Virus record (IMG/VR): IMGVR_UViG_3300030109_003574
Span: 5,382-55,715 of that record
Source of the DNA: a virus
DNA length: 50,334 bases
Strand: one strand, 5' to 3'
Of this stretch, positions 1 through 40,876 are shown piece after piece. The notes under the pieces were generated by a model. That model saw only the letters and a list, made by a program, of their open reading frames with translations, did not search any database and had not been told where the DNA came from. The position numbers and the translations under genes are program-made. Every line of letters begins with the position of its first letter. Position 1 is the stretch's first letter.

Positions 1-1332
1 ACCCTTATTAAAGAAGCTGCTAGAAACACAGTAAGAGAAGCAGGTGACGGTACTACTACAGCTACTGTCCTTGCTGAATCTTTATTAAAAGAAGTAAATA
101 ACGATGATAACACATCGATTAGAAAAATAAAAGACGGGATTAAATCTGGTCTTGTAAAGGTAAATAATTACCTAGACAAAGTTTCTGTCAAGATCGAGGG
201 CGATATGCTGGAATCTGTTAGCTCAATAAGTTGTAATAATGATACGGAGCTAGGAAAGATTATAGCAGAAGCTTATACTAAAGTAGGTAAAGATGGTGTG
301 GTATTAATGGAAGAGTCACCAACTGAAGAGACATATGTTGAAGTTGTAGATGGTGTACAGATAGATTCAGGACTCACATCTCCACATTTTATTACTGATA
401 AGGACAAGCAAATATGTGAGCTTGATAACCCATTAGTATTAATAGTATCTTCAGAAATACCTAATATAAGAAGAATACAAACAATATTAGAGTATGTTAT
501 AAAAAACAAGCGCTCATTATTAATTGTAGCACCAGTTGATCAACAGGTTAAAGCAGCACTTCTTATGAACAAGGTAAAAGGTAATATTAAAGTCAATATA
601 GTTGATTTACCAGGCTTTGGTCCTACTAAACAAGATACATGTGAGGACTTTGCTTTTCTTACAGGTGCAACTGTAATTAACGAAGAGCTAGGTGATGATC
701 TTGACTTAATAACTATAGACTGCTTAGGTGAAGCTCATACAGCTGTTACTGATAGTAAAAACACTGTATTAACAATAGACGCTCCAGAAAAAGAACTAGA
801 AGAAAGAAAAAAGACTATACAAAAATTAATTGATAGTTCTAGTAAAAATCCGTTTTTACAAAAGAAACATAAACAAAGGCTAGCTATGTTATCTGGTTCT
901 GTAGGTATCATAAAAGTTGGTGCTAACTCTAAGGTTGAAATGAAAGAAAAGAAAGATAGAGTTGAAGATGCCATACACGCTACTAAAGCAGCTTTAAAAG
1001 AAGGTATAGTTCCAGGTGGTGGTATTGCACTGCTTAATGCTTCACAAAAATTAAAAGCTGAGTCTATAGGTGAAAAAATATTATTTAAAGCTATTACAGC
1101 ACCATATGCTACGATATTAGATAATGCAGGTTTAGTTACAAACGTGAACATTGTTGAAGGAACTGGTATTAACGTAGTAACTGGTAAAGTTGTTAATATG
1201 ATAGAGTCTGGTATTATAGACCCTGTACTTGTTACTAAGTCAGCACTTAAAAATGCCGTTTCTGTTGTGACTACTATAATATCCGCTGATTGTGTAATTT
1301 CAAATATGAGATACAATGAAAGCGATAAATAG
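1..1332 (+). CDS. groEL: Chaperonin GroEL (Hsp60), 5' end outside window
   Basis: ATP-dependent folding chamber subunit. The frame is open from base 1, giving 443 visible residues; by alignment from memory the first corresponds to about residue 72 of E. coli GroEL, so roughly 70 N-terminal residues, including the equatorial catalytic Asp52, lie outside. Seen: the nucleotide-binding GDGTTTATVLA at visible residues 15-25, an apical-domain stretch, VEDAIHATKAALKEGIVPGGG-like sequence that includes the Asp398 equivalent and the PGGG turn near the C-terminal third. The protein ends in a polar tail (NMRYNESDK) and lacks the GGM repeats of bacterial GroEL. It overlaps groES by 17 bases. In a phage it probably folds capsid or other virion proteins. 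Very confident in family. Confidence 0.97.
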   Translation, partial: TLIKEAARNTVREAGDGTTTATVLAESLLKEVNNDDNTSIRKIKDGIKSGLVKVNNYLDKVSVKIEGDMLESVSSISCNNDTELGKIIAEAYTKVGKDGVVLMEESPTEETYVEVVDGVQIDSGLTSPHFITDKDKQICELDNPLVLIVSSEIPNIRRIQTILEYVIKNKRSLLIVAPVDQQVKAALLMNKVKGNIKVNIVDLPGFGPTKQDTCEDFAFLTGATVINEELGDDLDLITIDCLGEAHTAVTDSKNTVLTIDAPEKELEERKKTIQKLIDSSSKNPFLQKKHKQRLAMLSGSVGIIKVGANSKVEMKEKKDRVEDAIHATKAALKEGIVPGGGIALLNASQKLKAESIGEKILFKAITAPYATILDNAGLVTNVNIVEGTGINVVTGKVVNMIESGIIDPVLVTKSALKNAVSVVTTIISADCVISNMRYNESDK

Positions 1333-1573
1333 ATATATAATAGTAAATAAAATAAAGACAGAGCCTAAAAAGGTTGCTGGGTTGATCATGACAGAAGAAA
1401 CTGATCAAGACAATAGATATTTAAAAGCAAAAATAATATCGTGTGGTAATTTAGTTGAAGGACTAAAAGATGGTGACACGATATATTACGATAAACACGC
1501 TGGACACGACATTTCTTTTAATGATGTACTTTATAGAGTTATTCAAGATAGAGATGTTGTTCTAGTAGATTAA
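1316..1573 (+). CDS. groES: Co-chaperonin GroES
   Basis: The 85-residue lid protein for the GroEL chamber, of normal or slightly short length (E. coli 97). Visible features are the N-terminal beta-strand (NRYIIVNKIKTEP), a mobile loop with the conserved hydrophobic GLIM at about residues 23-26 that docks on GroEL, the KDGDTIYYDKHAG barrel segment and a C-terminal LYRVIQDRDVVLVD strand. The ATG lies inside the last codons of groEL (17-base overlap), so translation is probably coupled. Bacteria almost always place groES first; here the order is reversed. The short mobile loop fits a phage version adapted to its own chaperonin. Confident. Confidence 0.93.
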   Translation: MKAINRYIIVNKIKTEPKKVAGLIMTEETDQDNRYLKAKIISCGNLVEGLKDGDTIYYDKHAGHDISFNDVLYRVIQDRDVVLVD

Positions 1574-2801: not shown

Positions 2802-3242
2802 TTGAGATTAACCGCGCAGGATCTGCGTGAAATGAATATCCTTAAGTATTACAGGCTCACACGAAAGTGGGTCTGTAAAACTTACGGGTTAAAAGATGCA
2901 GACTTAGAATTATTAATTTATTTAGATTGTAAAGGAAGATTTACACGAAAAGATTTTATGGATGGAGTTTACACTTATTCATGGGATAAAACAAGATGGG
3001 ACAGATTACGTAAAGATGGTTGGATAGATACTTGGAGACACAGAAATAGAACTACTATAATGTACTCTGTATTTAAAACGTCTTTTAAGTGTTCACAAAT
3101 GATAAGTAGAATTTACAGAATACTTCTAGGCGAAGAAGACATGCCTACATCAGAAAGAAGTATATTTTATAATAACAAATCATATACAGATAAAGTTTAC
3201 AATAAAGCTATAGATGATATGATAAAAGATAAAACAAGATGA
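2802..3242 (+). CDS. Winged-helix-like (MarR-type) protein
   Basis: A 146-residue basic protein, probably a winged-helix DNA-binding protein. Residues about 10-75 run as helix, helix, then a TRKDF segment, a helix with DKTRWDRLRKDGWI and a wing-like RHRNRTTIMYSV, which is the layout of MarR-family phage proteins; the call rests on pattern only. The given start is TTG at 2802, four bases after the previous stop; an in-frame ATG at 2832 (MNILKYY) is the alternative, but the preceding LTAQDLREM looks like part of the fold. The last four bases overlap the next ATG. Codons in the first 90 bases (GCG, CTG, CGT, CTC, GGG) are unlike the surrounding AT-rich genes. It may regulate late genes or sit in the virion. 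Confidence 0.6.
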   Translation: MRLTAQDLREMNILKYYRLTRKWVCKTYGLKDADLELLIYLDCKGRFTRKDFMDGVYTYSWDKTRWDRLRKDGWIDTWRHRNRTTIMYSVFKTSFKCSQMISRIYRILLGEEDMPTSERSIFYNNKSYTDKVYNKAIDDMIKDKTR

Positions 3243-3556
3243 AAAAAAGAAGCACATTCAAGTTGAGATCGGGTAATAAACCTGCCTTTAAATTAATGGG
3301 TAAAGAAAAAGATGAAAAAAATAAAGATGATTCTAAAGAATTTAAAATAGGCAACACTACATTTGTAGGTCCACACACAGAAAAAGAACTTGCAGATACT
3401 AAAAAGTTAGATAGAAGATTTAGAGGTGGTCCTAGAGGTAAAAAAATGTTTACATCAGAAGAATATCGAAACTTCAAAAAAGTAGCTGGTCGCGATGCTT
3501 ACGTGGGAGTGCGACCTTTTTACACTTCAGATGTTCCAGGATATGAACTTGACTAA
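3239..3556 (+). CDS. Small basic protein with FKLRSGNKP tag
   Basis: A 105-residue hydrophilic, Lys/Arg-rich protein of unknown function. Residues 7-15 read FKLRSGNKP, identical to residues 3-11 of the next gene although seven of the nine codons differ synonymously, so the peptide itself appears to be selected. The remainder is highly charged (residues 20-45), followed by a conserved-looking RRFRGGPRGKKMFTSEEYRNF segment. There is no signal peptide or membrane segment. The start overlaps the previous stop by four bases (ATGA), which suggests coupled translation. It belongs with other small basic proteins in this window that look like virion-packaged or head-associated factors; that role is inference. 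Confidence 0.6.
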   Translation: MKKRSTFKLRSGNKPAFKLMGKEKDEKNKDDSKEFKIGNTTFVGPHTEKELADTKKLDRRFRGGPRGKKMFTSEEYRNFKKVAGRDAYVGVRPFYTSDVPGYELD

Positions 3557-3570
3557 AAAATATAAATAAA

Positions 3571-3798
3571 ATGGCTTTTAAATTAAGATCAGGAAACAAA
3601 CCATCACCAGCTAAACTTTCTGGAGTGCATAAAGGTTTTGAAGAAGCTGCTGATAGAATGAACAAAAGAGTAAAAGACTCTAAAACAATAGCCGGTGGTT
3701 TTTTACATGCTATTGGTGCTTTACCTGCTAATATTGGCGAGGTAACAACTAGATATATTAAGAAAGGTGTTGATGCTATTAAAAAGAAAAAAAAGTAA
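3571..3798 (+). CDS. Small basic protein with FKLRSGNKP and SPAK tag
   Basis: A 75-residue Lys-rich protein beginning MAFKLRSGNKPSPAKLSG, which combines the tag of the preceding gene with an S-P-x-K motif that recurs in several small proteins of this phage. Residues 20-65 could form amphipathic helices (KGFEEAADRMNKRVKD, then a Gly/Ala-rich GGFLHAIGALPANIG segment), and the tail is KKKKK-like. The downstream gene begins immediately after the stop. It is not recognised as a known family. The tag and the basic tail suggest binding to DNA or to the capsid interior. Confidence 0.6.
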   Translation: MAFKLRSGNKPSPAKLSGVHKGFEEAADRMNKRVKDSKTIAGGFLHAIGALPANIGEVTTRYIKKGVDAIKKKKK

Positions 3799-4233
3799 AT
3801 GGGATTTAAACTAGGTTCTGAAAGAGGTAATTATGCTGTAAATGGCGAGATTAAATCAAAACTACGTTTTGGTAAAAAATCTGGCGGTGATGCTTCTGTG
3901 CCTGGCACTCCTGTTATTAGAGTTCCATTAGCTGAAGGAATATTAGGAGAAGCTAATATGGATGGTAGTATTTTTATTAGTGATAAAATAGAGCCTGGTA
4001 GTCGTGAAGAAAGAAGAATTTTAATACACGAGATGAGACACGCTACAGATATGAAAACCGGTAAACTTTTTTACGATGATGATCATATTATGTATAACGG
4101 TGAAAGGTTTGAAAGAAAAGATATAAACGGCGTTGATTCTATATTAGTAGATGGTGAGTGGAAAGAAGCTGGCAGTGAGGGCTTTCCGTGGGAAAACGAC
4201 GCAAATAATGGTAACGATGAAGGATATATTTAA
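3799..4233 (+). CDS. Predicted zinc metallopeptidase-like protein (HExxH), FKLG tag
   Basis: A 144-residue protein with an N-terminal MGFKLGS version of the shared tag and a zincin signature HEMRH within LIHEMRHATD at about residues 76-80, in which the two His would bind zinc and the Glu would be catalytic. The helix is preceded by an FISDKIEPGSREERRI strand/turn, as in minimal metallopeptidase folds. A third ligand cannot be fixed; D or H residues in YDDDHIMYNG are candidates. No signal peptide is seen, so it would act in the cytoplasm or virion, perhaps as a maturation or cargo protease. It lies directly upstream of, and overlaps by 17 bases, a holin-like gene, so a cell-wall target is also possible. 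Confidence 0.62.
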   Translation: MGFKLGSERGNYAVNGEIKSKLRFGKKSGGDASVPGTPVIRVPLAEGILGEANMDGSIFISDKIEPGSREERRILIHEMRHATDMKTGKLFYDDDHIMYNGERFERKDINGVDSILVDGEWKEAGSEGFPWENDANNGNDEGYI

Positions 4234-4435
4234 AGATAATAATGATTATAATGAAAAATCTGTTATAGGTTTTTTAGCATTTGCAGTAATGTGTGTGATT
4301 ATGCTAGTTGACGTTATAACAGGTTATTTTGGTAAAGATTTAGTAATTAATGAATTTATATACGACTCGTTTGTATTCGTTGTAATAGGTTGCTTCGGTA
4401 TAAGTGGATTAGAAAAATTCGCAAAAAAGAAATAA
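4217..4435 (+). CDS. Holin-like two-TM membrane protein
   Basis: A 72-residue protein with a charged N-terminus (MKDIFKDNNDYNEKS), two hydrophobic segments at about residues 16-36 and 49-65, a short FGKDLVINEF loop and a basic tail (EKFAKKK). That size and topology fit class II phage holins. I chose the ATG at 4217, inside the end of the metallopeptidase-like gene; the open frame extends upstream (ATGs at 4151 and 4208), but that sequence is basic and looks like out-of-frame read-through of the neighbour. A second holin-type gene follows. Membrane location is clear; the lysis role is inferred. Confidence 0.65.
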   Translation: MKDIFKDNNDYNEKSVIGFLAFAVMCVIMLVDVITGYFGKDLVINEFIYDSFVFVVIGCFGISGLEKFAKKK

Positions 4436-4436
4436 T

Positions 4437-4487
4437 ATGAAAATGTGTCCTAAATGTAGGAGATTTAAAAAGAATTGCAAATGTTAG
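4437..4487 (+). CDS. Cys-rich micro-ORF (16 residues)
   Basis: A very short frame, MKMCPKCRRFKKNCKC, starts one base after the stop of the holin-like gene and ends over the start of the next membrane protein (its ATG at 4481). It has four Cys in C-x2-C and C-x-C spacing with seven basic residues between and around them, which could bind one metal ion like a zinc knuckle. A GGAG-like stretch (TAGGAG at 4457-4462) lies inside it, about 20 bases before the next start. It may be a real peptide, a translational-coupling leader for the second holin, or chance; the packing and Cys pattern argue against pure chance. Confidence 0.35.
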   Translation: MKMCPKCRRFKKNCKC

Positions 4488-4867
4488 ATAAATTATTTGG
4501 AGGTGGCGCTGCTGACCTCGTTAAAAGTGTAGGTGGTGTTATAGATGGTTTACATACATCTGACGAAGAAAAACTCGCTGCAGAGTTAAAAGTAAAAGAG
4601 TTAGTATCACAATACGAAACTCAAATGGAAAAAGAAATAACTTCTAGATGGCAAGCAGACATGAAGTCAGATTCATGGTTATCTAAAAACATCAGACCAT
4701 TAGTTTTGGCATTTTTAGTAATATCAACTGTATTATTAATATTTATAGATGCAGGTGCTATTAACTTTGTGGTAGAACAAAAATGGACTGACTTATTACA
4801 ATTAGTATTAATAACCGTGATCGGTGCTTATTTTGGTGGTCGATCATTTGAAAAAGTAAAAAAATAA
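4481..4867 (+). CDS. Holin of the 3TM (GTA-holin) superfamily
   Basis: A 128-residue membrane protein matching the GTA_holin_3TM pattern: a Gly-rich N-terminus (LFGGG), a helical SDEEKLAAELKVKELV region, then MKSDSWLSKNIRPL immediately before hydrophobic segments at about 72-92 and 103-118, ending GGRSFEKVKK. The DSWLSK-RPL and FGGRS-EK motifs are the family's strongest marks. Such proteins form membrane lesions releasing endolysin; the matching M15 endolysin is far downstream at 46.8 kb. I prefer ATG 4481 over a TTG at 4475, which would add two residues. Confidence 0.82.
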   Translation: MLDKLFGGGAADLVKSVGGVIDGLHTSDEEKLAAELKVKELVSQYETQMEKEITSRWQADMKSDSWLSKNIRPLVLAFLVISTVLLIFIDAGAINFVVEQKWTDLLQLVLITVIGAYFGGRSFEKVKK

Positions 4868-12009: not shown

Positions 12010-13245
12010 ATGGCAAAAAAAGAAAAACCAGTGGTAGATAACGATACTGGTAAAATAAAAGTAAAAGCAAAAAAAGAAAATCAACCAACAGGTAACGAAA
12101 CAAAAGGAAATGTTACCGTAGTTAAAGCTAAAATGAAACAAGGCACAAAAGACTTGGAAACTATAACTAAAGTTGATTTAGATAAAATAAAAAAACCAGA
12201 AGAAAAAAACGAAACCAAAGAAACTAATACTGAAGAAGCTAAAGTTGTTGAGGTTGTTGAAGAGGTAAAAAATGAGGAAAAAGAAGAAGAAGTAAAACAA
12301 GAAAAAGAAACACCAGTATTAGAAGAAATAACAGAAGAAGAAACAGAAAAAGAGGTTATTGAAGAAATAGCTACTGAAGCAAAAGAAGCTATTGTAGAAA
12401 ACATGGAAACTGGAAAGCCTTTACCAGAAAATATTCAAAAGTTAGTAGACTTTATGGAAGAAACTGGTGGAGATATTCACGACTATGTTAAGCTTAATCA
12501 AGACTATAGCAAGCTGGATGATAGAGGTTTGTTATACGAATACTACAAGCAAACTAAACCTCATTTAAATTTAGAAGAAATAAACTTTCTTATGGAAGAT
12601 CAGTTTTCTTATAATGAAGAAGAAGACGAAGAAAGAGATATAAAAAGAAAAAAATTAGCGTTAAAAGAGCAAGTTGCCGACGCTAAACGCCACTTGGACG
12701 GGCAAAAGTCCAGATACTATAAAGATATTAAAGCTGGTTCAAAGCTAACGCCTGAACAACAAAAAGCTATTGATTTCTTTAATAGATATAACAAAGAATC
12801 AGAAGTTACTCAAAAAGCAGCTAAACAAAACTCTGAAATTTTTACACAAAAAACTGATAATGTTTTTAATGACAAGTTCAAAGGTTTTGAATATAATGTC
12901 GGTGATAAAAAATACAGATTTAATGTAAACAATGCTAACGAGGTTAAAGAAACTCAAAGCGATTTAAACAATTTTACCAAAAAGTTTTTGGACAAAAAAA
13001 TGGCTTTAAAAGATGCAATGGGTTATCATAAATCTCTATATACAGCAATGAATGCTGATGCTGTTGCAAAACACTTTTATGAACAAGGTAAAGCAGATGC
13101 TTTAAAAGAAAGCGTTGCTAAAGCTAAAAACGTTGATATGAATCCAAGGCAAAACCATGGTGTTGTTGAGGCGGGTGGTATTAAGGTAAGAGTGTTAGGT
13201 GAAGATTCTTCTGATTTTAAGTTTAAAATTAAAAATAGAAAATAA
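12010..13245 (+). CDS. Capsid scaffolding protein
   Basis: A 411-residue, extremely charged protein directly before the major capsid gene. The first 135 residues are low-complexity Lys/Glu (KEEKEEEVKQEKE-type), then helical segments around 150-270 and a basic C-terminal third ending KFKIKNRK. Disordered acidic N-terminus, coiled-coil middle and basic capsid-binding C-terminus are the hallmark of internal scaffolds. No protease motif is seen, so any prohead protease is elsewhere or absent. Gene order portal-scaffold-capsid supports the call. Confidence 0.75.
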   Translation: MAKKEKPVVDNDTGKIKVKAKKENQPTGNETKGNVTVVKAKMKQGTKDLETITKVDLDKIKKPEEKNETKETNTEEAKVVEVVEEVKNEEKEEEVKQEKETPVLEEITEEETEKEVIEEIATEAKEAIVENMETGKPLPENIQKLVDFMEETGGDIHDYVKLNQDYSKLDDRGLLYEYYKQTKPHLNLEEINFLMEDQFSYNEEEDEERDIKRKKLALKEQVADAKRHLDGQKSRYYKDIKAGSKLTPEQQKAIDFFNRYNKESEVTQKAAKQNSEIFTQKTDNVFNDKFKGFEYNVGDKKYRFNVNNANEVKETQSDLNNFTKKFLDKKMALKDAMGYHKSLYTAMNADAVAKHFYEQGKADALKESVAKAKNVDMNPRQNHGVVEAGGIKVRVLGEDSSDFKFKIKNRK

Positions 13246-13269: not shown

Positions 13270-14823
13270 ATGGCAATTACTGGAGGAGATAATTTAAACA
13301 AGGTGCCTTCGCCAACTAAAGCGACACTTGAATCAAATTATCTTGATTTAGCTGGAACAACCGGAGAAGGTTGGGCACAGCAATATTTACCAGACCTAAT
13401 GGAGAAAGAAGCAGAAGTATTCGGAAATAGAACTATTTCAGGTTTCTTATCACAAGTTGGGGCTGAAGAGGCTATGACTGCTGATCAAGTAGTATGGTCT
13501 GAACAAGGAAGATTACATCTTTCGTATGTAGGTCACATTGAAGACTTAGCACAACAAGATAACAATAGTAACCAACCTGGTGGTTCGATAACTATAGATA
13601 CTGACATTGATGGTAATGCTGTTGGTTCTTCTGCTATTGATCATGGTATTAGAGTAAATGATTTACTTTTAGTATCTACATCAGAATTTACTACGCAATG
13701 TTTAGTAACAGCTGTAGCTAACGCTGTAGTTTCTGTAGCGGTTTACAATTCTGGTGCTACTAACAAAACTCTTCAAGATTTAGGAGCTGCAAACGACGAT
13801 GTATGTACAGTACTTGTATTTGGTTCTGAATATGCAAAAGGTAGAAAATACTATGACAACAGTCCTTCTGGTGCTAACGCAGGAGATGCAGTTGACTTTC
13901 GTCAAGCTAATGAACCACAGTTCAAGTCTTTTAGCAACAAACCAATTATTTTAAAAGATTACTACTCAGTATCAGGTTCTGATACGGCTAGAATCGGTTG
14001 GGTTGAAATTGCTTCTGAAACTGGACAATCTGGTTACTTATGGTATTTAAAAGCAGAATCTGACACAAGAGCTCGTTTTGCTGATTATTTAGAAATGGCA
14101 ATGTTAGAGTCTGTTAAAGTTACAACAGCAAACTCTGAGGTTGATGAGTTCTTATCTGGTGCTGATATTGATGGTGCAGCTACAGGTGGTGGACCATTCG
14201 GTACTCAAGGTTTATTTGACGCTATTAAAGATAGAGGTAATGTTACTACTGGTGTTACTGGTGTTAACGCTGCTACTGATTTAGCTGAGTTTGATGCAAT
14301 ACTTGCTGAGTTTGATAAGCAAGGTGCTATTGAAGAAAACATGATGTTTGTAAACAGAGCTACTAGTTTAGCAATGGATGACATGTTAGCTTCTATGAAC
14401 TCTTACGGGGCTGGTGGTACTTCTTACGGAGTGTTTGATAACTCTGAAGACATGGCACTTAACCTAGGTTTCTCTGGTTTCAGAAGAGGTTCTTATGACT
14501 TCTACAAGTCTGATTTCAGATACTTAAACGACAAAGCTACTAGAGGTGGTATTAACGATAGAAACACTACTGACCCTATTAGAGGAGTCATAATACCAGC
14601 TGGTACATCTACTGTTTATGACCAAATGTTAGGTAAAAACCTTAAACGTCCTTTCTTACACGTTAGATATAGAGCTTCAGAAACTGATGATCGAAGAATG
14701 AAAACTTGGATTACTGGTTCTGTTGGAGCTGCTACATCTGCTTTAGACGCTATGGAAATACACTTCCTATCTGAAAGATGTTTAATTACTCAAGGTGCTA
14801 ATAACTTTATGTTAATGCAGTAA
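13270..14823 (+). CDS. Major capsid protein
   Basis: A 517-residue protein expected to have the HK97 fold, forming the head lattice. It starts with an N-terminal arm (AITGGDNLNKVPSPTKATLESNY), then an E-loop-like region with VFGNRTISGFLSQVGAEEA, a beta-rich insertion about residues 95-190, a WVEIASETGQSGYLWYLKAESDTRARFADYLEMAM spine-helix region, and a C-terminal domain with FLHVRYRAS and IHFLSERCLI. It follows portal and scaffold, has a poly-A/T leader with ATG at 13270 and is closed by a strong terminator, as expected of the most abundant product. Length is ordinary for large marine podoviruses. Confidence 0.85.
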   Translation: MAITGGDNLNKVPSPTKATLESNYLDLAGTTGEGWAQQYLPDLMEKEAEVFGNRTISGFLSQVGAEEAMTADQVVWSEQGRLHLSYVGHIEDLAQQDNNSNQPGGSITIDTDIDGNAVGSSAIDHGIRVNDLLLVSTSEFTTQCLVTAVANAVVSVAVYNSGATNKTLQDLGAANDDVCTVLVFGSEYAKGRKYYDNSPSGANAGDAVDFRQANEPQFKSFSNKPIILKDYYSVSGSDTARIGWVEIASETGQSGYLWYLKAESDTRARFADYLEMAMLESVKVTTANSEVDEFLSGADIDGAATGGGPFGTQGLFDAIKDRGNVTTGVTGVNAATDLAEFDAILAEFDKQGAIEENMMFVNRATSLAMDDMLASMNSYGAGGTSYGVFDNSEDMALNLGFSGFRRGSYDFYKSDFRYLNDKATRGGINDRNTTDPIRGVIIPAGTSTVYDQMLGKNLKRPFLHVRYRASETDDRRMKTWITGSVGAATSALDAMEIHFLSERCLITQGANNFMLMQ

Positions 14824-30105: not shown

Positions 30106-33100
30106 ATGAACGAATATTACAGCGTTGACGGTGTTACATATCGAATTACTTCTATTGAAGAAAAAAACAGACTTTTAAATAAGTTTCCAGATGCTATTTT
30201 AGTTAGTCGTGACCCTGTTGTGTCTAATGTTCCAAGTATTCCAGAAATTAAAGAGCTTAATTGGTTTGACGAGGTGTTTAAAGATTCTTGGTTTGGTAGA
30301 GGTAAACTGCAAGCTAGTACAACGGGTGAGTCTTTTAATTTATTAATGGAAGGCTCTCAAGTAACTTCAGAGTCTATAAATAATCTTATAGAAGCTACAA
30401 AATCTCAAAACTTAAACTATGTGCCTTCCCAAAGAATGAGGAAATTTCAAGAAAATTACCAAAAAAGAGGTGGTAGTTGGTGGGCTTTTGCTAAAGGTGT
30501 TTCAGAAGATCCTATGTTACTAGCAGAACTTTTTACTCAATCTTTAGGTACTCAAGTTGGTACTCTTTATGACTCTGAAGAAGCTCAAATAGCTACTGGA
30601 GCTGCATTTTTATCTACTTTTACAGGTAGTATGGCTTTGTCCAAAGGAGATTTAAGAGCAAAAGTTATTAAATCAGGTGGTCGTGGTTTGATGGTAGCAC
30701 AAGGTACACTTGTTTCGATAATGGAAAGCTCTTTAACGTTTTCGGAGTTAATACAAGAAGAGTTAAAAAAATCAAACGAAAACTGGACTGACGAAAATTT
30801 TGATGAATGGTTTACAGAAGAAAACATTAGAAATCTTTTAACTGGTTCACAAGGAAGTAGTATAAGATATAAGGCTATTGGAAGAGGTTTAACAATTGGT
30901 ACTATAGAAGCATTAACTACCGGTATTGCAGGAAAAGCAGTAACACGTACTTTAAGTAAACCAGGTAGAGCCACAAAAGTAAAAGCAATAGCAGCTGGAG
31001 CTGGTGTTGAAATGATTGGTGGTGGTACTGGTGAGGTAGCTGGTAGATTTGTAGCTGGTCAAGAAATGGATCCCGCTGAAATAGGTTTTGAAACTGTAAC
31101 TGGTTTAACTTCTACACCAATTTCTGTTTTGTATGGGCTAGGTACTTATAAAAAACCTGTGTATACGTTGAATAGTAATGAAGTTACGTTTGAAGAAATG
31201 AAAGACTTTATTGATAATGCAGATGATATTGATATTGCAAAAGCTAATATCAAAATGGAAAACGATATGACTGGCTTAAATGTAAAGGCTTATAAAAAAC
31301 AAAGTAGAGCTATTATAGAACAATCTATTGATGAAAAAATAACAGATAAAAAAGATAGAGAAACTTTAATAGAACTAGAAACAGAAAGACAACAGTTGTT
31401 ATCAGACAAAAAGAAAGAAGGAGCAGCACAATCAGTAGGAAATAAGCAAAACTTAGAGCGTGTGGAAAATGAAATATCAGCTATTATAGACAAATATGCT
31501 GGTGCTGTTGGTATTTTTAAAACAGAACAAGGGGCAGCTATATTACAAAGAAGAGGTGAAATAGCGTTAGATGAAACAATAAAATTTCTTGAAACTAATA
31601 AAAAGTTTGTTGGTAAAGATGTTGTTGTAGGTGAAGATATAAACGAAACTCAAAACGCATACAGAAAAGCAGCTGAAGAGTACAATAGAAAAAATCCTAA
31701 TGAAAAACAATATGATATAAACAAAGATATTACTAAATCAGATGGATTTGTTGTTGGCGATGTTATTGTTATTAATAAGCCTATAGCTGGTTTAACAGGT
31801 CAAATTAATGTTGGTGCGCATGAGCTTTTGCACGGTATTATAACAAAACATTTTAATTCTTTAGACACTAAAGGTAAAACAAAACTTATAACTGACTTTA
31901 GAAATACTATATCAAAAGAATCTGATGCTTATATATTAAAAGAATTAAGACGTAGAAAAAAAGCTGGCGAAACTGATTTAAATTTAAATACAACACAAGA
32001 GTGGTTAACTGTATATTCTGATGGTATAACTAAAGGTGAGATAACTTTTAACGAGAGTATTTCTGTAAAACTTAAAAACTTTTTACAAAATATATTTAGA
32101 AAATTTACATATAACAAAGAGTTTACAAGTGGTTTGGATACATATAACTTTATGCGTGGTTATCAAAAAAGCGTTGCCAAAGGTGGTGTTATAAGTAAAA
32201 GAGCCCAAAGAATTGCTGGGGGAGGCGCTGTCACTACAGAAGTTTTAGAGTCAAGATCAAAGGCCGCTGAAGCTGTTAATAAAATAGAACAACGTTTAAA
32301 AAACAAACTAAAGCAAGAAGGTAGAGATTATACTCAAGAAGAATTTAGAAAAAGTGATGAATTTAGAGATATATTTGATTCTGTAGTTGAGCCTGGTGGA
32401 GCTATAAACAATTACATTAAAAGTCTTGGCATGAGCCCAGAAAAGACTAAAAAAGTAATACAAAACGTTTCTGACAGGTTAATGAATTATAACCCGCAGG
32501 CAAAAAGAAAAACTGGCAGCAAAGAAGCTATAACTATTGGCGAGCAAATAATGTCTAGCACTATGTTTGGTAAGTTGGATGCTGCTAAAGAATTAGCTAC
32601 AAAAAGTAAAAAAGAAGGCAAAACAGTTAGAATAGACGCTGCAAAAAGAACTAAAGAAGGTGATACAACATTTGATATAGAAGACACAAGTACTCAAAAT
32701 GTTTTTTCAGAAACTGAAGATATATCTCTTGAAGCACAAGCTAGAGAAAAAGCAGATAAAGAAGCTGGCAAAACTAGAAAAACATCTAAACTTAGAAGAA
32801 AAATTGGTATAGAGACCGGAGGAAAAATATATAATTCAGTTTTAGACGCTGCTCGTCAAGCATTATTAAAAGCATATGAAGCGGGAACGTCAGTTAGAAA
32901 TATACAAAGAAAACTAAGAGATCAAGCTAGTGGTTATTTATTTAAAGAAATTAAAAACTTTTTAGGAACTAAAACATATGTTAGTAATTTAAGAAAGTTT
33001 GGTGAAGCTATTTTTGACTCTTTATTTACTGCTGATTTAGTGCAGTTAGAAAAAAACGTTCCTGATGATCAAAGAGTTTTTACTGAATTTGAAGAAAAAT

Positions 33101-36100
33101 TAACTAGAAAAGGTGATGTTGAAAAAGCTGTAAACGATGGTAGATTACCTCCAGAAGCAATAAATACTTATGATAGAGATAAGTCTGTTAACGTTTACAA
33201 AAAGAAAAAATATAATGAAGAAAAGTGGATGGCTTTCTTTGATATACCAACTATTAACCCGGTAACAGGTGCTAGATCTGGTAAAAGAGGAACTAGAAAA
33301 GATACTTTATCTAGACTATTATCTGGGTCACTTGCTTTTGATGCTATTCCACAGGTTGCTAGAGAACCAGAAGTTATAAAACGAAGAAAAGAGTTTGCTG
33401 AAATAAAAGGAGAATCTGATGCTATAAATAGCTTAGAACAATTAGCTGCTGAGATACATAGGCAAAAAGATATTGATTTTAGTTTTTCTGATTTATCACA
33501 GGCACAGAAAAACAAAACTGCTTTTTATTTTGAAGATGCTGCAAACAATTTATCTGGAATAGGACAACAGTTTGCAACAATAATAAGTGGATTATTAAAT
33601 GACGGTATTGATATACAAGAAGCTTATTTAGTTGCAAAAGAAAACACCGGTATTGATAGTGATGCTTTAGATATAATATTCAAACAAGGTAATTTTAACA
33701 AATCACATGTTGAAAATATAAAGTTTGGTATTAGTAAGTTTGGAGTAGCTAAAGTTAGAAAACTAGGGTACGATGCTTCTATAAAATATATTTCAAGACA
33801 ACTACAAGGAGTTAGAAGTTTAACAAAAAAAATAGAAATTATAAATGATTTTCTTGTAAATATAGGTAGATCAGCTAGAACAGCTGCTTTTATTGATAAA
33901 CTAACTAATATTACTAGTAATGAGTCTTTATTATTTGATTTTATTGACAAGCTTGGTGATGAACAAATTAGTAAAACATATAACTTGCAATCAGCACCTA
34001 TAAAAGGTAAAAGAATAGTATATACAGATCCTAGTACGAACACTGTGAAACCTGTGCCAATGTACGAAAATATTGAAAAAATAAAAAACAATGCTTATAA
34101 AAGTCAGGCAATAAGAGATAATATTAAAAAAGAGGCAAAGCTAGCTAGAGATTATATTGTTAAAATAATTAGCGACAAAACACTAAGTAAAGCAGAAAAA
34201 AAAGCTATAATAAAACTAATGGGTCAAGACCAAAGAGGAGCTTTAAGAAAATCTTTTAACCTAGGTATGTATATAGATCGTAATAAATTAGATTTAAATT
34301 CTGAGCAGACTATATTAGAACATGAATTAACTATTAGTGATACTACAAAAAAAATAAATGATGTTATTGATAATAACAAATCAATTGATGAATTAAGAAA
34401 AATTCTTGAAAGATCTCAAGTTCATATATTACCAAAACGTTTAGATAATATACTAACTAAAGAAGGTTTAAAGTATAAAGGTAGTTTTGAAAGATATCAA
34501 AATAAAAAGTTTAAAACAGAATTAAAAAAATTAATTGATAATGGTTCAATTAAAAACGTTCCAGTTGATATATTATTTAAAGAAAAAATAGATTTAAATA
34601 AAAAATCTAAAGCTGTATTACAATCTAGATCTGCTAATAAAGAAACAAAAGGTATTACTATTTTAGATTTTGATGATACTTTAGCTACAACAAAATCAAT
34701 GATTAAATTTGTTAGACCTGACGGTACTAAAGGAAAGTTAAACGCAGAGCAATATGCTAGTACTTACGAAGATTTATTAGGAAAAGGATATACATTTGAT
34801 TTTTCTGAATTTAATAAAGTTGTTGATGGTAAAAAAGCACCATTGTTTAATAAAGCTTTAAAGTTACAAAACAAATTTGGACCAGAAAATATGTTTGTTT
34901 TAACTGCTAGACCTCCTGAATCTGCTAAAGCAATATATAACTTTTTAAAATCTAACGGTCTTAATATACCGTTAAAAAATATCACAGGACTTGCGAACTC
35001 TACTGCAGAAGCAAAAGCACTTTGGGTTGCAGATAAAGCGTCTGAAGGTTATAATGATTTTTATTTTGCAGATGACGCTTTACAAAACGTACAAGCTGTA
35101 AAAAACATGTTAGATCAATTTGATGTTAAATCTAAAGTACAGCAAGCAAAAGTTCAGTTTAGTAACTCTATGGATAAAAGGTTTAATGATATATTAGAAG
35201 ATATAACAGGTATTGAATCTAAAAAAAGATTTGACACGGTAAAAGCTAGAAAGCGTGGAGAGAAAAAGGGTAGATTTAGATATTTTGTACCACCTTCACA
35301 CGAAGATTTTATAGGTTTATTATATAATTTTTTAGGCAAAGGTAAAAAAGGTGATGCAAATAGAAGTTTTTTTGAAGAAACATTAATTAGACCTTTAAAT
35401 AGAGCTTTTAGAGAAATAGACATGGTAAGACAAAGTGTTGCTAATGATTTTAAATCTTTAAATAAAAAACTTTTTCCTGATGTTAAGAAAATGCTTAATA
35501 AAGCAACACCTGATGGTGATTTTATATATGAAGATGCAATAAGAATTTATATATGGAGTAAACATGGTTATGAAATACCTGGTCTTTCTGCAATTGATCA
35601 AGAAAGACTAATTGATCTAGTATATGATAATGATGCTTTATACAATTATGCAGAAACACTAGATGCAATATCAAAGCAAGAAGCTTATGTACAACCTCAA
35701 GATGGTTGGGAAGGTGGAAATATAAGAACAGATTTAGACGAAGCTACTGGTAGAATAGGTAGAAAAAAACATTTAACTGAGTTTCTTGAAAACACAAGTA
35801 TAATTTTTTCAAAAGAAAATTTAAATAAAATAGAAGCTGGATTTGGTAAAGAAATGAGAGATTCTATAGAAGATATGCTTTATAGAATAGAGACTGGTAT
35901 AAATAGACCAAAAGGATCTAATGGAACTGTTAATAAATTTATGAACTTTTTAAATGGTTCTGTTGGTAGTGTTATGTTTTTTAATATGAGATCTGCTTTA
36001 CTACAGCAAATGTCTATTGTTAACTATATAAACTTTGCTGATAATAATATTTTTGCAGCAGCTAAAGCGTTCGCAAATCAAAAACAATTTTGGAAAGACT

Positions 36101-37254
36101 TTGATTTTATATTTAATTCTGATATGTTAAAACAAAGACGTGGTGGTTTAAGAACTGATATAAATGCATCAGAACTTACTGAAACTCTTGGTAAATCTAG
36201 ATATCCAATAAGGGTAGTTATAAATAAATTATTACAACTTGGTTTTAAACCAACACAAATTGGTGATAGTATTGCTATATCAATTGGTGGCGCTAGTTAT
36301 TATAGAAATAGAATTAACACTTATTTAAAACAAGGTTTAACATTAGAAGAAGCTGAAACAAAAGCTTTTACTGATTTACAAGATACAACACAATCTACGC
36401 AGCAGTCTTCTAGGCCAGATATGGTTTCAAAACAACAGGCTTCTTGGATAGGTAAAGTTATATTAAATTTTCAAAATGTTACATCACAGTACAATAGAAT
36501 AGTTAAAAAAGCAGCTTCAGACATATATAATGGAAGAATAACAAAACCTAACAGTACTTTGTTACAGAGTAACATTTCTAACGCAGCAAGAATAACTTAT
36601 TATTTTGGTATACAAAACCTTATATTTTACACATTACAAAACGCTTTATTTGCAATGTTATTTGATGATGAAACAGAAGAAGAAAATGAGTTGTTTTTAA
36701 AGAAAAAAGATAGAGTAATTAATGGTACTATTGATAGTGTGTTAAGAGGTTCTGGTATTACAGGCGCTATTTTATCTACTTTAAAAAATACATATATAGC
36801 TTATCAAAGACAGAGAGATGTTAATTATAATCCAGATGAAAGTGCTGTTTTAATGGAAGCTTTAAACTTTTCACCTGTAGTAGGTATTAAGGCTAGAAAA
36901 GTTACAAATGCAGAAAAAACTCTTAATTATAACAAAAAAGTTATGGAAGAAATGGAAACTTTTGATATTGATAATCCAATGTATTCTGCATATACAAACT
37001 ACATAGAAGCTTTTACAAATTTACCTTTAAATAGATTATACAACAAAACTCAAAACTTAAGACAAGCATTTAATAACGAGCATGAAACTTGGCAAAGAAT
37101 GATGATGTTTTTTGGTTGGAGTCAATATAATCTTAACATACAAAATGAAAAAGTAGAAAATATAAAAGAAGAAATAAAAACTAAGAAAAAGATTAAAAAA
37201 ACAAGAAATAGAAAATTAACTCCTAGTGAACTTTATGAATTACAAAGAAGGTAA
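30106..37254 (+). CDS. Giant ejection/polyvalent protein with HExxH and HAD domains
   Basis: A 2382-residue virion protein. Residues 1-360 hold a helical region with a Gly/Ala-rich hydrophobic hairpin (about 285-345) that could insert in membranes. A metallopeptidase-like motif H572-E-L-L-H576 follows. A HAD phosphatase domain spans about 1515-1680 with D1521/D1523 in DFDDT (motif I), T1600 in LTARPP (motif II) and D1656-D1657 in FADD (motif IV). The C-terminal 700 residues are helical, including MFFNMRSALLQQ and a hydrophobic SNAARITYYFGIQNLIFYTLQNALFA-like segment near 2160-2190. The layout resembles T7 gp16-type ejection proteins and the multi-enzyme polyvalent proteins of phages. Probably injected with DNA, digesting or modifying host targets. 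Family confident, enzyme targets unknown. Confidence 0.75.
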   Translation: MNEYYSVDGVTYRITSIEEKNRLLNKFPDAILVSRDPVVSNVPSIPEIKELNWFDEVFKDSWFGRGKLQASTTGESFNLLMEGSQVTSESINNLIEATKSQNLNYVPSQRMRKFQENYQKRGGSWWAFAKGVSEDPMLLAELFTQSLGTQVGTLYDSEEAQIATGAAFLSTFTGSMALSKGDLRAKVIKSGGRGLMVAQGTLVSIMESSLTFSELIQEELKKSNENWTDENFDEWFTEENIRNLLTGSQGSSIRYKAIGRGLTIGTIEALTTGIAGKAVTRTLSKPGRATKVKAIAAGAGVEMIGGGTGEVAGRFVAGQEMDPAEIGFETVTGLTSTPISVLYGLGTYKKPVYTLNSNEVTFEEMKDFIDNADDIDIAKANIKMENDMTGLNVKAYKKQSRAIIEQSIDEKITDKKDRETLIELETERQQLLSDKKKEGAAQSVGNKQNLERVENEISAIIDKYAGAVGIFKTEQGAAILQRRGEIALDETIKFLETNKKFVGKDVVVGEDINETQNAYRKAAEEYNRKNPNEKQYDINKDITKSDGFVVGDVIVINKPIAGLTGQINVGAHELLHGIITKHFNSLDTKGKTKLITDFRNTISKESDAYILKELRRRKKAGETDLNLNTTQEWLTVYSDGITKGEITFNESISVKLKNFLQNIFRKFTYNKEFTSGLDTYNFMRGYQKSVAKGGVISKRAQRIAGGGAVTTEVLESRSKAAEAVNKIEQRLKNKLKQEGRDYTQEEFRKSDEFRDIFDSVVEPGGAINNYIKSLGMSPEKTKKVIQNVSDRLMNYNPQAKRKTGSKEAITIGEQIMSSTMFGKLDAAKELATKSKKEGKTVRIDAAKRTKEGDTTFDIEDTSTQNVFSETEDISLEAQAREKADKEAGKTRKTSKLRRKIGIETGGKIYNSVLDAARQALLKAYEAGTSVRNIQRKLRDQASGYLFKEIKNFLGTKTYVSNLRKFGEAIFDSLFTADLVQLEKNVPDDQRVFTEFEEKLTRKGDVEKAVNDGRLPPEAINTYDRDKSVNVYKKKKYNEEKWMAFFDIPTINPVTGARSGKRGTRKDTLSRLLSGSLAFDAIPQVAREPEVIKRRKEFAEIKGESDAINSLEQLAAEIHRQKDIDFSFSDLSQAQKNKTAFYFEDAANNLSGIGQQFATIISGLLNDGIDIQEAYLVAKENTGIDSDALDIIFKQGNFNKSHVENIKFGISKFGVAKVRKLGYDASIKYISRQLQGVRSLTKKIEIINDFLVNIGRSARTAAFIDKLTNITSNESLLFDFIDKLGDEQISKTYNLQSAPIKGKRIVYTDPSTNTVKPVPMYENIEKIKNNAYKSQAIRDNIKKEAKLARDYIVKIISDKTLSKAEKKAIIKLMGQDQRGALRKSFNLGMYIDRNKLDLNSEQTILEHELTISDTTKKINDVIDNNKSIDELRKILERSQVHILPKRLDNILTKEGLKYKGSFERYQNKKFKTELKKLIDNGSIKNVPVDILFKEKIDLNKKSKAVLQSRSANKETKGITILDFDDTLATTKSMIKFVRPDGTKGKLNAEQYASTYEDLLGKGYTFDFSEFNKVVDGKKAPLFNKALKLQNKFGPENMFVLTARPPESAKAIYNFLKSNGLNIPLKNITGLANSTAEAKALWVADKASEGYNDFYFADDALQNVQAVKNMLDQFDVKSKVQQAKVQFSNSMDKRFNDILEDITGIESKKRFDTVKARKRGEKKGRFRYFVPPSHEDFIGLLYNFLGKGKKGDANRSFFEETLIRPLNRAFREIDMVRQSVANDFKSLNKKLFPDVKKMLNKATPDGDFIYEDAIRIYIWSKHGYEIPGLSAIDQERLIDLVYDNDALYNYAETLDAISKQEAYVQPQDGWEGGNIRTDLDEATGRIGRKKHLTEFLENTSIIFSKENLNKIEAGFGKEMRDSIEDMLYRIETGINRPKGSNGTVNKFMNFLNGSVGSVMFFNMRSALLQQMSIVNYINFADNNIFAAAKAFANQKQFWKDFDFIFNSDMLKQRRGGLRTDINASELTETLGKSRYPIRVVINKLLQLGFKPTQIGDSIAISIGGASYYRNRINTYLKQGLTLEEAETKAFTDLQDTTQSTQQSSRPDMVSKQQASWIGKVILNFQNVTSQYNRIVKKAASDIYNGRITKPNSTLLQSNISNAARITYYFGIQNLIFYTLQNALFAMLFDDETEEENELFLKKKDRVINGTIDSVLRGSGITGAILSTLKNTYIAYQRQRDVNYNPDESAVLMEALNFSPVVGIKARKVTNAEKTLNYNKKVMEEMETFDIDNPMYSAYTNYIEAFTNLPLNRLYNKTQNLRQAFNNEHETWQRMMMFFGWSQYNLNIQNEKVENIKEEIKTKKKIKKTRNRKLTPSELYELQRR

Positions 37255-38332: not shown

Positions 38333-38722
38333 ATGGCATTTAAAATGAAAGGTTGGAGCGGATGGTCTCCATTAAAACAAAAACCAAAACCTAGAAAAGG
38401 TGATGTTTATGTAGGCCCAAAACCAACTATAATAAAAGATGGTAAAGAGGTGCCAAATCCAAACTATGTTAAAGGTGATGAGTTTAAAATGTCTGATAAA
38501 CCTATGTTTGAAGGACAACAACCTTCAACACATTTAATGGCTTACGGTGAGTCTGATGGTAAGTTTGTAGCATACCCAACTTTATTTCAAGATGACAGTG
38601 GTATGTGGTATGAGCCAGATGACGCATTTAAAGAAGCTAATAAAAAAGAAGAAATATATAAATTTGATACAGAAAAAGAGGCCTCTGATTTTGCGGCTGG
38701 TAGTTGGAAAAATAAAAAATAA
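38333..38722 (+). CDS. Tagged small protein (MAFKMKG...SPLK) with phage cargo-like domain
   Basis: A 129-residue protein beginning MAFKMKGWSGWSPLKQ, a variant of the FKLRSG / S-P-x-K tag. The C-terminal half is STHLMAYGESDGKFVAYPTLFQ...WYEPDDAFKEANKKEEIYKFDTEKEASDFA, similar to a small domain of phage internal proteins in which a text-like YPT(L/V) strand is followed by DAxxxxxxxGE...FDTxEEAxxYA. That similarity is from memory and needs a profile search. It starts one base after the barrel gene. It may be a virion cargo adaptor bearing the tag. Confidence 0.6.
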   Translation: MAFKMKGWSGWSPLKQKPKPRKGDVYVGPKPTIIKDGKEVPNPNYVKGDEFKMSDKPMFEGQQPSTHLMAYGESDGKFVAYPTLFQDDSGMWYEPDDAFKEANKKEEIYKFDTEKEASDFAAGSWKNKK

Positions 38723-39036: not shown

Positions 39037-39385
39037 TATTAACTGGCCAACACGAGTTATGTACATGTTAATAATTATTATCATGTTATCTTGTAGTATT
39101 TGTTTTGGCCAAATAAAAGTAGTGCAGTTTAATGCTGGTTGGAACAAAGCCAACGACGTGCCTTGGGTAATGAGTTTAAAAGACTGTAAAACTAAAGCTT
39201 ATACTGATATAGCTGCTAATCCTAATGAAGCTAAAAAATATAAAATATCATCTGTACCTACTATAATAATATTTAAAGATGGTGAAGAAGTTGCAAGGTT
39301 TCAAGCTGATCTTAGCTTTACATTATCAGCAACAAAAGAAGAAGTACAAGAAGAAATAAGTAACCAGATAATGAGTGATTTTTAA
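39026..39385 (+). CDS. Secreted thioredoxin-fold protein lacking CxxC
   Basis: A 119-residue protein with a signal-like hydrophobic segment (MYMLIIIIMLSCSICFG, residues 12-28) likely cleaved before Gln29, then a thioredoxin core: KVVQFNAGWNKANDVPW where WCGPC would be expected, a conserved-looking LKDC at 51-54, TDIAANPNEAKKYKISSVPTIIIFKDGEEV with the cis-Pro78, and a helical end. The redox pair is missing, so it cannot be an ordinary oxidoreductase; a single-Cys isomerase or a binding role in the periplasm is possible. A start at Met12 or Met14 would give a better signal peptide. Overlaps its neighbours, so it is part of one operon. Confidence 0.72.
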   Translation: MTDNINWPTRVMYMLIIIIMLSCSICFGQIKVVQFNAGWNKANDVPWVMSLKDCKTKAYTDIAANPNEAKKYKISSVPTIIIFKDGEEVARFQADLSFTLSATKEEVQEEISNQIMSDF

Positions 39386-39386
39386 T

Positions 39387-39773
39387 ATGGCATATATACA
39401 AAAAAATAATCCTTTTCCTGTAACAAGTTGTGGTAGACGTAGAACGTTTATGAATGACAATGCTTTAAAAATGTTAAACAAGCCAGGTGAAGATCGCACT
39501 AAACAAAGCCCGTTTGAAAAAAGTAATGAACCTAGAAAAACTACAAAAGGTAAAGGTCGTAACTTTAGGACTGTTGAAGAGGGTGCTGGGATGACTTCTA
39601 AAGGAGTTGCTGAATATAGACGTAAAAACCCCGGAAGTAAGCTTAAAACAGCTGTAACAGGAGATGTTAAACCGGGTAGTAAAGCTGCAAAAAGAAGAAA
39701 ATCGTTCTGCGCTAGATCAAAAGGTTGGACCGGTGAAAGAGGTAAAGCTGCTAGACGTAGATGGAAGTGTTAA
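39387..39773 (+). CDS. Small Lys/Arg-rich protein
   Basis: A 128-residue very basic protein. It begins AYIQKNNPFPVTSCGRRR, contains QSPFEK and a long basic stretch (KGKGRNFRTVEEGAGMTSKG), and ends with KPGSKAAKRRKSFCARSKGW...RRRWKC. This last part, GSKLKTAV(T)G-VKPGSKAAKRRKSFCARS, is a pattern I recall as common in marine phage small proteins of unknown function. Four Cys are spread through it, so metal binding or disulfides are possible. I prefer ATG 39387 over the upstream GTG at 39375. Probably nucleic-acid binding. Confidence 0.62.
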   Translation: MAYIQKNNPFPVTSCGRRRTFMNDNALKMLNKPGEDRTKQSPFEKSNEPRKTTKGKGRNFRTVEEGAGMTSKGVAEYRRKNPGSKLKTAVTGDVKPGSKAAKRRKSFCARSKGWTGERGKAARRRWKC

Positions 39774-39790
39774 TTTAAAAAAAAATAAAT

Positions 39791-40027
39791 ATGAGATCAA
39801 GAACATCACCTTTAAGAGCTTATGTTTCAGACGCACAACGTAAGGCTGTGCATGCTAGCAAAGCGGAGAAATCATCTCCTGCTAAAGGCAAGATAAGTCC
39901 TAGTTGTAAAGCTGCTGCTAAACGTAAATTTAAAGTTTGGCCTAGTGCTTATGGTTCTGGTTGGGGTGTAAGATGCACTAAAGCTGGTGGACCTGGTAAT
40001 ATGGGTAAAGGTAAAAAGAAAAAATAA
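39791..40027 (+). CDS. Small basic protein with SPLR, SPAK and SPSCK motifs
   Basis: A 78-residue Lys/Arg-rich protein beginning RSRTSPLRAYVSDAQRKA, with SSPAKGK and ISPSCK motifs and a core CKAAAKRKFKVWPSAYGSGW followed by RCTKAGG and a Lys-rich tail. KVWPSAYxSG ... C recurs in uncharacterised small phage proteins (a DUF5872-like domain, from memory). The stop and next start overlap in TAATG. With its neighbours it makes a block of small basic proteins that could coat or condense virion DNA. Confidence 0.65.
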   Translation: MRSRTSPLRAYVSDAQRKAVHASKAEKSSPAKGKISPSCKAAAKRKFKVWPSAYGSGWGVRCTKAGGPGNMGKGKKKK

Positions 40028-40569
40028 TGTTTAAAAATTTCGACATAAATCCTTTTAAAAAAATAAAACCTCCAGGTGATAATACTTTTGACACCATGCA
40101 GGAAATTAAAGCTTTAAATAGAATACCTATAAAAAAAGATTTTGTTAAAAAATTTGACGATCAAGAAAAAGCTTTTAAAGAAACAGCTGAAAGAGAAGGT
40201 ATAAAAGATTATGATAGTAGTATAGCTAAAAAATTAATTGATAGCTCTGCGCCAGTTATAATGAAATTAAAAATGCATTTTAACAGGCCAAGGCCAAAAG
40301 TTTTAGCTAAAAAAATGAATATAAAAATGAAGGATATAGAAATGAAGTCTATGAAAACACCATCATATCCTTCAGGTCATTCTGCGCAAGGTGTATTAAT
40401 TGGATTAACATATAGCAAAAAATACCCTAAATCAAGTAAAGCTTTTATGGCTACAGCAAAAAATATATCTGACAGTAGAAACGTTGCACACGCTCATTAT
40501 AAAAGTGATAGCGATATGGGTAAACTTTTAGGTACGGAATTATATAAACACATAAAAAACAAAATTTAA
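40027..40569 (+). CDS. PAP2-superfamily phosphatase
   Basis: A 180-residue protein with all three PAP2/vanadium-haloperoxidase phosphatase motifs: K80-x6-R87-P88, P115-S116-G117-H118, and S150-R151-x5-H157-x3-D161. His118, His157 and Asp161 form the usual catalytic set for dephosphorylating lipid phosphates or small phosphoesters. Unlike most family members it has no transmembrane helices and no signal peptide, so it is probably cytoplasmic or carried in the virion; the substrate is unknown. It lies inside a block of small Lys-rich proteins and is coupled by TAATG to the gene before it. Confidence 0.85.
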   Translation: MFKNFDINPFKKIKPPGDNTFDTMQEIKALNRIPIKKDFVKKFDDQEKAFKETAEREGIKDYDSSIAKKLIDSSAPVIMKLKMHFNRPRPKVLAKKMNIKMKDIEMKSMKTPSYPSGHSAQGVLIGLTYSKKYPKSSKAFMATAKNISDSRNVAHAHYKSDSDMGKLLGTELYKHIKNKI

Positions 40570-40570
40570 A

Positions 40571-40876
40571 ATGAAAAAAGCAATGAAAATGAAAAAGCCT
40601 TCGGCAACTAAAATGAAAAAAGCTCCAGCTAAATTTAACGCAAAATTAAAAGCAGCTAGTAAAGCTGGTAAACTAAGCGGTAAGTTTAAAGCAGCTGTTG
40701 ATGCAGCACCTGTTAAAATGAAAAAAATGAAAGAATCAGCTATGACTATGAAAAAAGCTGCAATGAAGCTTAAAAAAGAATCAGCTATGAAGCTTAAAAA
40801 ATCAGGTATGATGCTTAAAAAATCAGCAATGATGATGAAAAAAGCTGCTGGTATGAAGATGATGAAGAAGAAGTAA
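40571..40876 (+). CDS. Lys/Met/Ala-rich histone-like protein
   Basis: A 101-residue low-complexity protein: by hand count 35 Lys and 18 Met, with Ala and Ser making most of the rest and only a few acidic residues. The N-terminal third is KAMKMKKPSATKMKKAPAKF, then a KFNAKLKAASKAGKLSGKF segment that is more ordinary, and the C-terminal half is built from imperfect repeats of the form SAMKLKKSGMMLKK. It resembles histone-tail-like or DNA-condensing peptides; the high Met content is odd. Starts one base after the PAP2 gene; overlaps the next by TAATG. Probably DNA binding. Confidence 0.65.
   Translation: MKKAMKMKKPSATKMKKAPAKFNAKLKAASKAGKLSGKFKAAVDAAPVKMKKMKESAMTMKKAAMKLKKESAMKLKKSGMMLKKSAMMMKKAAGMKMMKKK

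Follow-up and report, generated by a model that had tools for sequence, protein, structure and literature searches.

A short N-terminal peptide shared by unrelated late proteins in part of a marine phage lineage: a possible docking tag for the prohead

The DNA analyzed here (the window, 50,334 bases) spans bases 5382-55715 of virus record IMGVR_UViG_3300030109_003574, which has a total of 56,057 bases. The nearest relatives with annotation include Manatee Spring podovirus (MW202828; TerL 63%) as well as phages infecting Flavobacterium (elemo), Cellulophaga, Maribacter, and Tenacibaculum. Because of these relatives, we infer that the host is probably a member of the marine Flavobacteriia. Four genes in the window encode proteins with a short, similar peptide near the N-terminus, hereafter the tag (Table 1). 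Two more tagged genes are located just upstream of the window at record positions 2870 and 3354 (MAFKMNRP... and MAFKMKGNP...), and the whole 56-kb record contains six. In the region made up of window 1-1573 and record 2870-4298, the phage's GroEL and GroES genes are found between two groups of tagged genes.

Table 1. Tagged genes, their tags, and the putative scaffold gene in the window.
Feature	Position	Strand	Basis or remark
Tagged small late gene, 105 aa, no relatives known for the body	3239..3556	+	
Tag FKLRSGNKP, residues 7-15 of the 3239 protein	3257..3283	+	sequence
Second tag copy FKLMG, 3239 protein	3287..3301	+	sequence
Tagged small late gene, 75 aa	3571..3798	+	homologues: either tag, one body
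Tag FKLRSGNKP, residues 3-11 of the 3571 protein	3577..3603	+	sequence
Tagged HExxH metallopeptidase-like gene, 144 aa	3799..4233	+	
Tag FKLGS, 3799 protein	3805..3819	+	sequence
Putative scaffold/internal head protein, between portal and major capsid protein genes	12010..13245	+	
Tag-like C-terminal FKFKIKNRK of the putative scaffold, flexible tail	13216..13242	+	
Tagged late gene, 129 aa	38333..38722	+	body residues 65-126 also in Schitoviridae phages
Tag FKMKG, then SPLKQ, 38333 protein	38339..38353	+	sequence

An earlier note on this DNA reported that the 3239 and 3571 proteins share the nine residues FKLRSGNKP, and that seven of the nine codons differ at the third base. Both observations are confirmed, and every change is synonymous. 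The codon pairs (3239/3571) are TTC/TTT, AAG/AAA, TTG/TTA, AGA=AGA, TCG/TCA, GGT/GGA, AAT/AAC, AAA=AAA, and CCT/CCA. The additional copies it listed at the starts of the 3799 and 38333 genes are present as well. Its statement that the remainder of the two proteins is unrelated holds for the bodies after the tag, which do not match, but the likeness extends slightly past the nine residues (KPA-FKLMG in one protein and KPSPAKLSG in the other; BLASTP E 1e-4). The second copy in the 3239 protein directly follows the first. Neither the 3239 nor the 3571 body belongs to a family that we could find in PHROGs or Pfam. The domain in the 38333 body matches small hypothetical proteins of no assigned function in the unrelated Schitoviridae phages Littlefix and 98PfluR60PP.

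The N-termini were compared across this genome and 10 long relatives, 743 genes in all. Nine of the 10 relatives were selected because they hold the tag, thus the count per genome is not that of a random sample. The contrast between N-termini and the rest of the proteins is unaffected by this choice. The pattern FK[LM][KRGSN] is found at 54 N-termini in the 11 genomes, compared to 0.8 expected from how often it occurs in the rest of the proteins, and to 2.65 expected from shuffled N-termini (maximum of 7 in 300 shuffles). When 4-mers were counted without any prior pattern, FKMK was the most common at N-termini (27/235 protein families, vs. one family elsewhere), and the next unrelated 4-mers occur in about five families. 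Approximately five of the 54 tagged N-termini are likely due to chance, a number compatible with the expected 2.65. They comprise the 38725 family, which accounts for two genomes, proteins of 3789 and 165 aa, and one early-strand gene. Residue 3 is the usual start of the tag; in 15/54 cases the tag starts at residues 4-14. All but one of the 54 tagged genes are on the TerL (late) strand (p = 2e-9).

The tag is also found well beyond these genomes. We scanned IMG/VR with a DNA pattern encoding an N-terminal MAFKMKG and used a scrambled pattern of equal degeneracy (MAKFKMG) as the control. At least 120 stretches matched the MAFKMKG pattern and five matched the scrambled one. The 154 matches that were read are located at ORF starts and represent 144 distinct proteins, which are mostly small, lysine-rich, and dissimilar to one another; the tag sits on many unrelated bodies. 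The earlier note's reading of the peptide as a signal would have been refuted had related genomes lacked the motif in their small proteins. This search was run, and the motif is there. This phage's TerL (≥72% identity) is present in 48 of 50 tagged contigs tested. In the reverse direction, contigs chosen by TerL alone that have at least 4 kb upstream carry the tag there in 19/27 cases. Chance or local duplication as the source of the tag is rejected by the shuffles, the scrambled-pattern control, and the synonymous saturation.

Other groups do not appear to use the tag. A MAFKMKG scan covering 257 Gb of genome sequence from bacteria and archaea resulted in 27 matches, which look either like chance hits in short, random ORFs or like ordinary proteins, including one recurring MAFKMKGRVGDSPI protein. 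A general bacterial motif is therefore rejected. A tblastn of cultured phages with a 20-aa tag query returned nothing; a query this short has little power. ORF scans of the Manatee, phi38:1, and Panino stretches found no plausible gene with an FK[LM][KRGSN] tag, and in the elemo stretch the only tag-like N-terminus is on the protein in the scaffold position. The close relative G002 lacks a strict tag; its peptidase has MGFKLPK and nothing closer was found. We found no mention of MAFKMK, FKMKG, or FKLRSG in the literature searched. By these computations, the tag is specific to part of one marine phage lineage.

The synonymous divergence had been taken in the earlier note as a sign that the peptide itself is constrained as a signal. 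This is strongly supported by four things: unrelated bodies across the lineage share the tag, codon usage in it is ordinary, its nonsynonymous/synonymous ratio is low, and it is swapped on one body. In the 144 tags, Phe is encoded by TTT at a frequency of 0.89 (genome usage 0.88), the two Lys by AAA at 0.90 and 0.84 (genome usage 0.83), and Gly is encoded by each of its four codons. Within the HExxH family, [FY][KR][LMIQ] is kept near the start in 75/75 members. Among 22 close members, the nonsynonymous/synonymous ratio is 0.53 for codons 2-6, 6.2 for codons 7-12, 4.6 for the linker, and 1.31 for the enzyme body. A low ratio at the tag with a high one just after it indicates selection on the peptide. 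These 22 members were chosen for an FKL start, thus conservation of the tag is more fairly judged by the 75/75 count, with the linker values serving as a contrast. The same data bear on a nucleotide-level feature, e.g., a translation-initiation cassette or a start-codon recombination hot spot that hitch-hikes between genes. The start of most tags at residue 3, the A-rich start regions, and the exchange of bodies behind the tag would all suit such a feature. We nevertheless give it next to no credence. The tag codons vary synonymously at genome usage, tags also start at residues 4-14, the ratio rises from 0.53 at the tag to about 5-6 beside it, and substitutions within the tag are conservative (F/Y, K/R). 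As the sole explanation, a start-codon nucleotide signal is contradicted by the codon usage and the variable tag position; the tag may still have been spread by recombination.

The exchange of tags is best seen in the 3571 homologues, in which one body follows either the FKLRSGNKP tag or FKMKG/FRMKG..SPxM. In this phage and in L003 the body carries FKLRSGNKPSPAK; three other relatives have KFKKSSGF[KR]MKGYTYPGT on it instead. Members of the 40876 family start with MAFKMKG in some genomes and have different starts in others, and the standard tag has been lost from the 38333 body in L004. A relative in another genome was found for 15/39 tagged proteins (a count that leaves out the HExxH protein) vs. 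252/311 untagged late proteins (p = 8e-8). Lysine and disorder-promoting residues are more frequent in the tagged bodies. Judged by sequence, the tagged bodies are accessory and cargo-like. The tag is thus real by computation, lineage-specific, carried on late genes, and exchanged between bodies. A separate element, SP[LMAFVIYNH], is found within 25 residues after the tag in about 31% of tagged proteins, compared to 7% of untagged late proteins, and often reads SPLK, SPAK, or SPMK. It is possible that this element is a second half of the tag motif.

The HExxH protein (3799) is part of the lineage core, as it is present in 10/11 genomes. In its AlphaFold model, residues 1-30 have a pLDDT below 50 and residues 31-138 form a folded domain; the tag and linker are thus predicted to be a disordered flexible arm. 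The HExxH motif is located within a helix (residues 69-87), with H77 nearly invariant and E78 and H81 invariant. A profile search matched MJ1213 (E 0.012). The top Foldseek matches of the model are selecase and abylysin (E ≥0.14 in the PDB), and there are also weak matches to viral models with SprT-like names (near 1e-3) and to one polyvalent-protein domain. The sequence and the model point to a resemblance to selecase-type minimal metallopeptidases that is below significance, and the activity and substrate are undetermined. The HExxH motif and a comparable size are shared with selecase and the minigluzincins; unlike them, the 3799 protein carries the phage tag, and its third zinc ligand is unidentified. 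Most tags in this family are FKLG and lack the second lysine.

A metallopeptidase-like protein that is nearly universal in the lineage and is itself tagged raises another alternative, in which the tag would be a propeptide cleaved during maturation by a phage protease, e.g., the HExxH protein. There is precedent, as gp21 removes the capsid-targeting sequences (CTS) of T4 proteins (PMC9026906). We give cleavage only a slim chance. The nonsynonymous/synonymous ratio of the linker is about 5 with no conserved residues at the would-be scissile bond, SPx follows the tag in only about 31%, and no prohead protease of a known type was found among the window ORFs. Without a cleavage site or a prohead protease, this reading is unsupported. 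Of the signal roles named in the earlier note, docking or sorting fits the data, while cleavage lacks support, the residues after the tag not being conserved.

A peptide of similar chemistry is found at the C-terminus of the protein encoded at 12010. We call this protein a putative scaffold because of its composition, a model that is mostly helical, and the gene order, in which it lies between the portal gene and the capsid protein gene (13270-14823). The N-terminus is acidic and disordered, the core helical, and the tail flexible, a predicted architecture of the kind expected of a scaffold or an internal head protein. A Foldseek search with the model gave no significant match. Among its homologues, 66/69 have [FLIV][KR][FILVM][KR] within the final 16 residues, and K404 and K406 are nearly invariant. 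Only 13 of the 743 proteins have [FL][KR][FILVM][KR] at the C-terminus. Ten of these are in the putative scaffold family, the only family whose C-terminus matches the tag. The elemo homologue, a structural protein by annotation, starts with MFKMKLEG, and homologues in the G003/G004 branch start with QEG[DE]FK[LM]. The location of the protein in the scaffold position was not settled by the Baltic Flavobacterium phage paper or the phi38:1 proteomics paper. The C-terminal peptide is also present in the tag-free relatives phi38:1, Manatee, and Panino; thus, it predates the tag and is no proof of a shared partner. The likeness is also short (F-K-hydrophobic-K) and was recognized only after the fact, and the second lysine is missing from most tags of the HExxH family.

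The P22 scaffold without its last 11 residues no longer binds coat protein (PMC9965877). Both the P22 and the 12010 proteins have a short basic C-terminal stretch, which in P22 is essential for coat binding (PMC9965877). The P22 terminus is a helix-turn-helix, whereas the end of the 12010 protein is predicted to be a short strand and has no coat-binding data. Here, unlike in P22, the chemistry is also placed on the N-termini of other proteins.

We propose that the tag is an N-terminal short linear docking peptide with the core [F/Y]-[K/R]-[L/M], usually in the form M-A-F-K-M-K-G or M-x-F-K-L-[K/R/G]. Part of this lineage carries it on a changing set of small late proteins, about 2-9 in each genome, among them the core metallopeptidase-like protein. 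Since the tag is lineage-specific and belongs to the late module, we infer that it would bind a partner that is phage-encoded and produced late in infection. The likeliest partner would be the prohead, via the coat protein or the scaffold-coat interface. The tagged proteins would then be loaded as head cargo and, like the internal proteins of T4, would probably enter the next host by ejection. The chemically similar FKFKIKNRK end suggests that the tag may copy the coat-docking end of the scaffold. The scaffold likeness together with the P22 and T4 precedents make a prohead docking and cargo-loading tag the best model; packaging is inferred, there being no virion proteomics of a tagged phage, and we put the chances of this role at about even.

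The T4 internal proteins are loaded via an N-terminal 10-residue peptide, and their bodies diverge (PMC9026906). As in T4, the tag is a short N-terminal peptide on divergent small basic phage proteins whose bodies vary among relatives (PMC9026906). The criterion used for T4 internal proteins, a peptide common to the N-termini of several divergent small proteins, holds here too. Unlike T4, the genome is podovirus-like, neither a gp21-type protease nor a cleavage site was found for the tag, and packaging remains an inference; we claim no sequence likeness to the CTS. Encapsulins offer another comparison, in which a short terminal peptide on unrelated cargo is bound by an HK97-type shell, but the encapsulin system is not a phage virion.

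Late-strand restriction and lineage specificity would fit any conserved late phage protein, and the tag could instead dock to the portal, ejection proteins, a holin/lysis complex, or the phage GroEL. Three tagged genes adjoin a holin gene (4475-4867) and are downstream of GroEL/GroES. The remaining tagged genes (38333; record 2870 and 3354) are distant from the lysis genes, and the putative scaffold alone has a matching terminal peptide. Docking to one of these other late partners is unlikely in our view, though it should not be dismissed. GroEL itself is also encoded by the tag-free relatives G002, elemo, Manatee, and Panino; the tag therefore does not track GroEL, and a GroEL client tag is rejected. 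A host component (nucleoid, membrane, ribosome, or protease adaptor) is the other option. Short basic, hydrophobic peptides frequently bind nucleic acid or membranes, and a tag limited to one phage lineage may mean one host group. This seems to us decidedly unlikely, since the tagged genes are late and not early, the tag is absent from the scanned stretches of related Flavobacteriia phages, and cellular genomes make no use of it.

If the prohead is the partner, the tag would be a short peptide for cargo loading into a phage head, and an address label for those small proteins of this marine phage group that travel in the virion. By itself, it would mark out dozens of uncharacterized families as candidate injected proteins (counter-defence, takeover). 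More tentatively, FK-hydrophobic-K may be a portable cargo code, with scaffold-coat docking chemistry copied onto the N-termini of dozens of accessory proteins, a proposal that we would sooner doubt than assert. Any new gene that acquired the tag would then have its product loaded into the head and carried to the next host. The phages would have a natural and evolvable means of protein delivery, independent of that of T4.

Several other genes in the window are of interest. A small membrane-like protein (4151-4435) adjoins the holin, which has 3TM, and has a weak, below-threshold match to the T6SS protein TssN (Pfam E 1e-4). A 2382-aa protein (30106-37254) contains a polynucleotide-kinase-like (HAD) segment (PHROG 415, residues 1508-1690), varies from 1546 to 3789 aa in relatives, and is likely an internal/ejected polyvalent protein. 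A B12-dependent ribonucleoside-triphosphate reductase (48392-50266) is encoded on the opposite (-) strand. A run of small, very basic proteins is found at 39375-41244 (DUF6321 at 39390, a Lys/Met-rich protein at 40571, and the 40876 family). Their relatives in other genomes are often MAFKMKG-tagged, and we consider them candidate DNA-binding virion proteins. An 824-aa protein (41229-43703) contains many GCxDxxAxNYxPxANxDDGSC repeats, and its C-terminus, DILGRPTKETKN..FYIYSDGSVEKKLIKE, resembles a type IX secretion tail of Bacteroidota. One copy of this repeat is found in tagged 260-aa proteins of relatives (L241:8437-9219).
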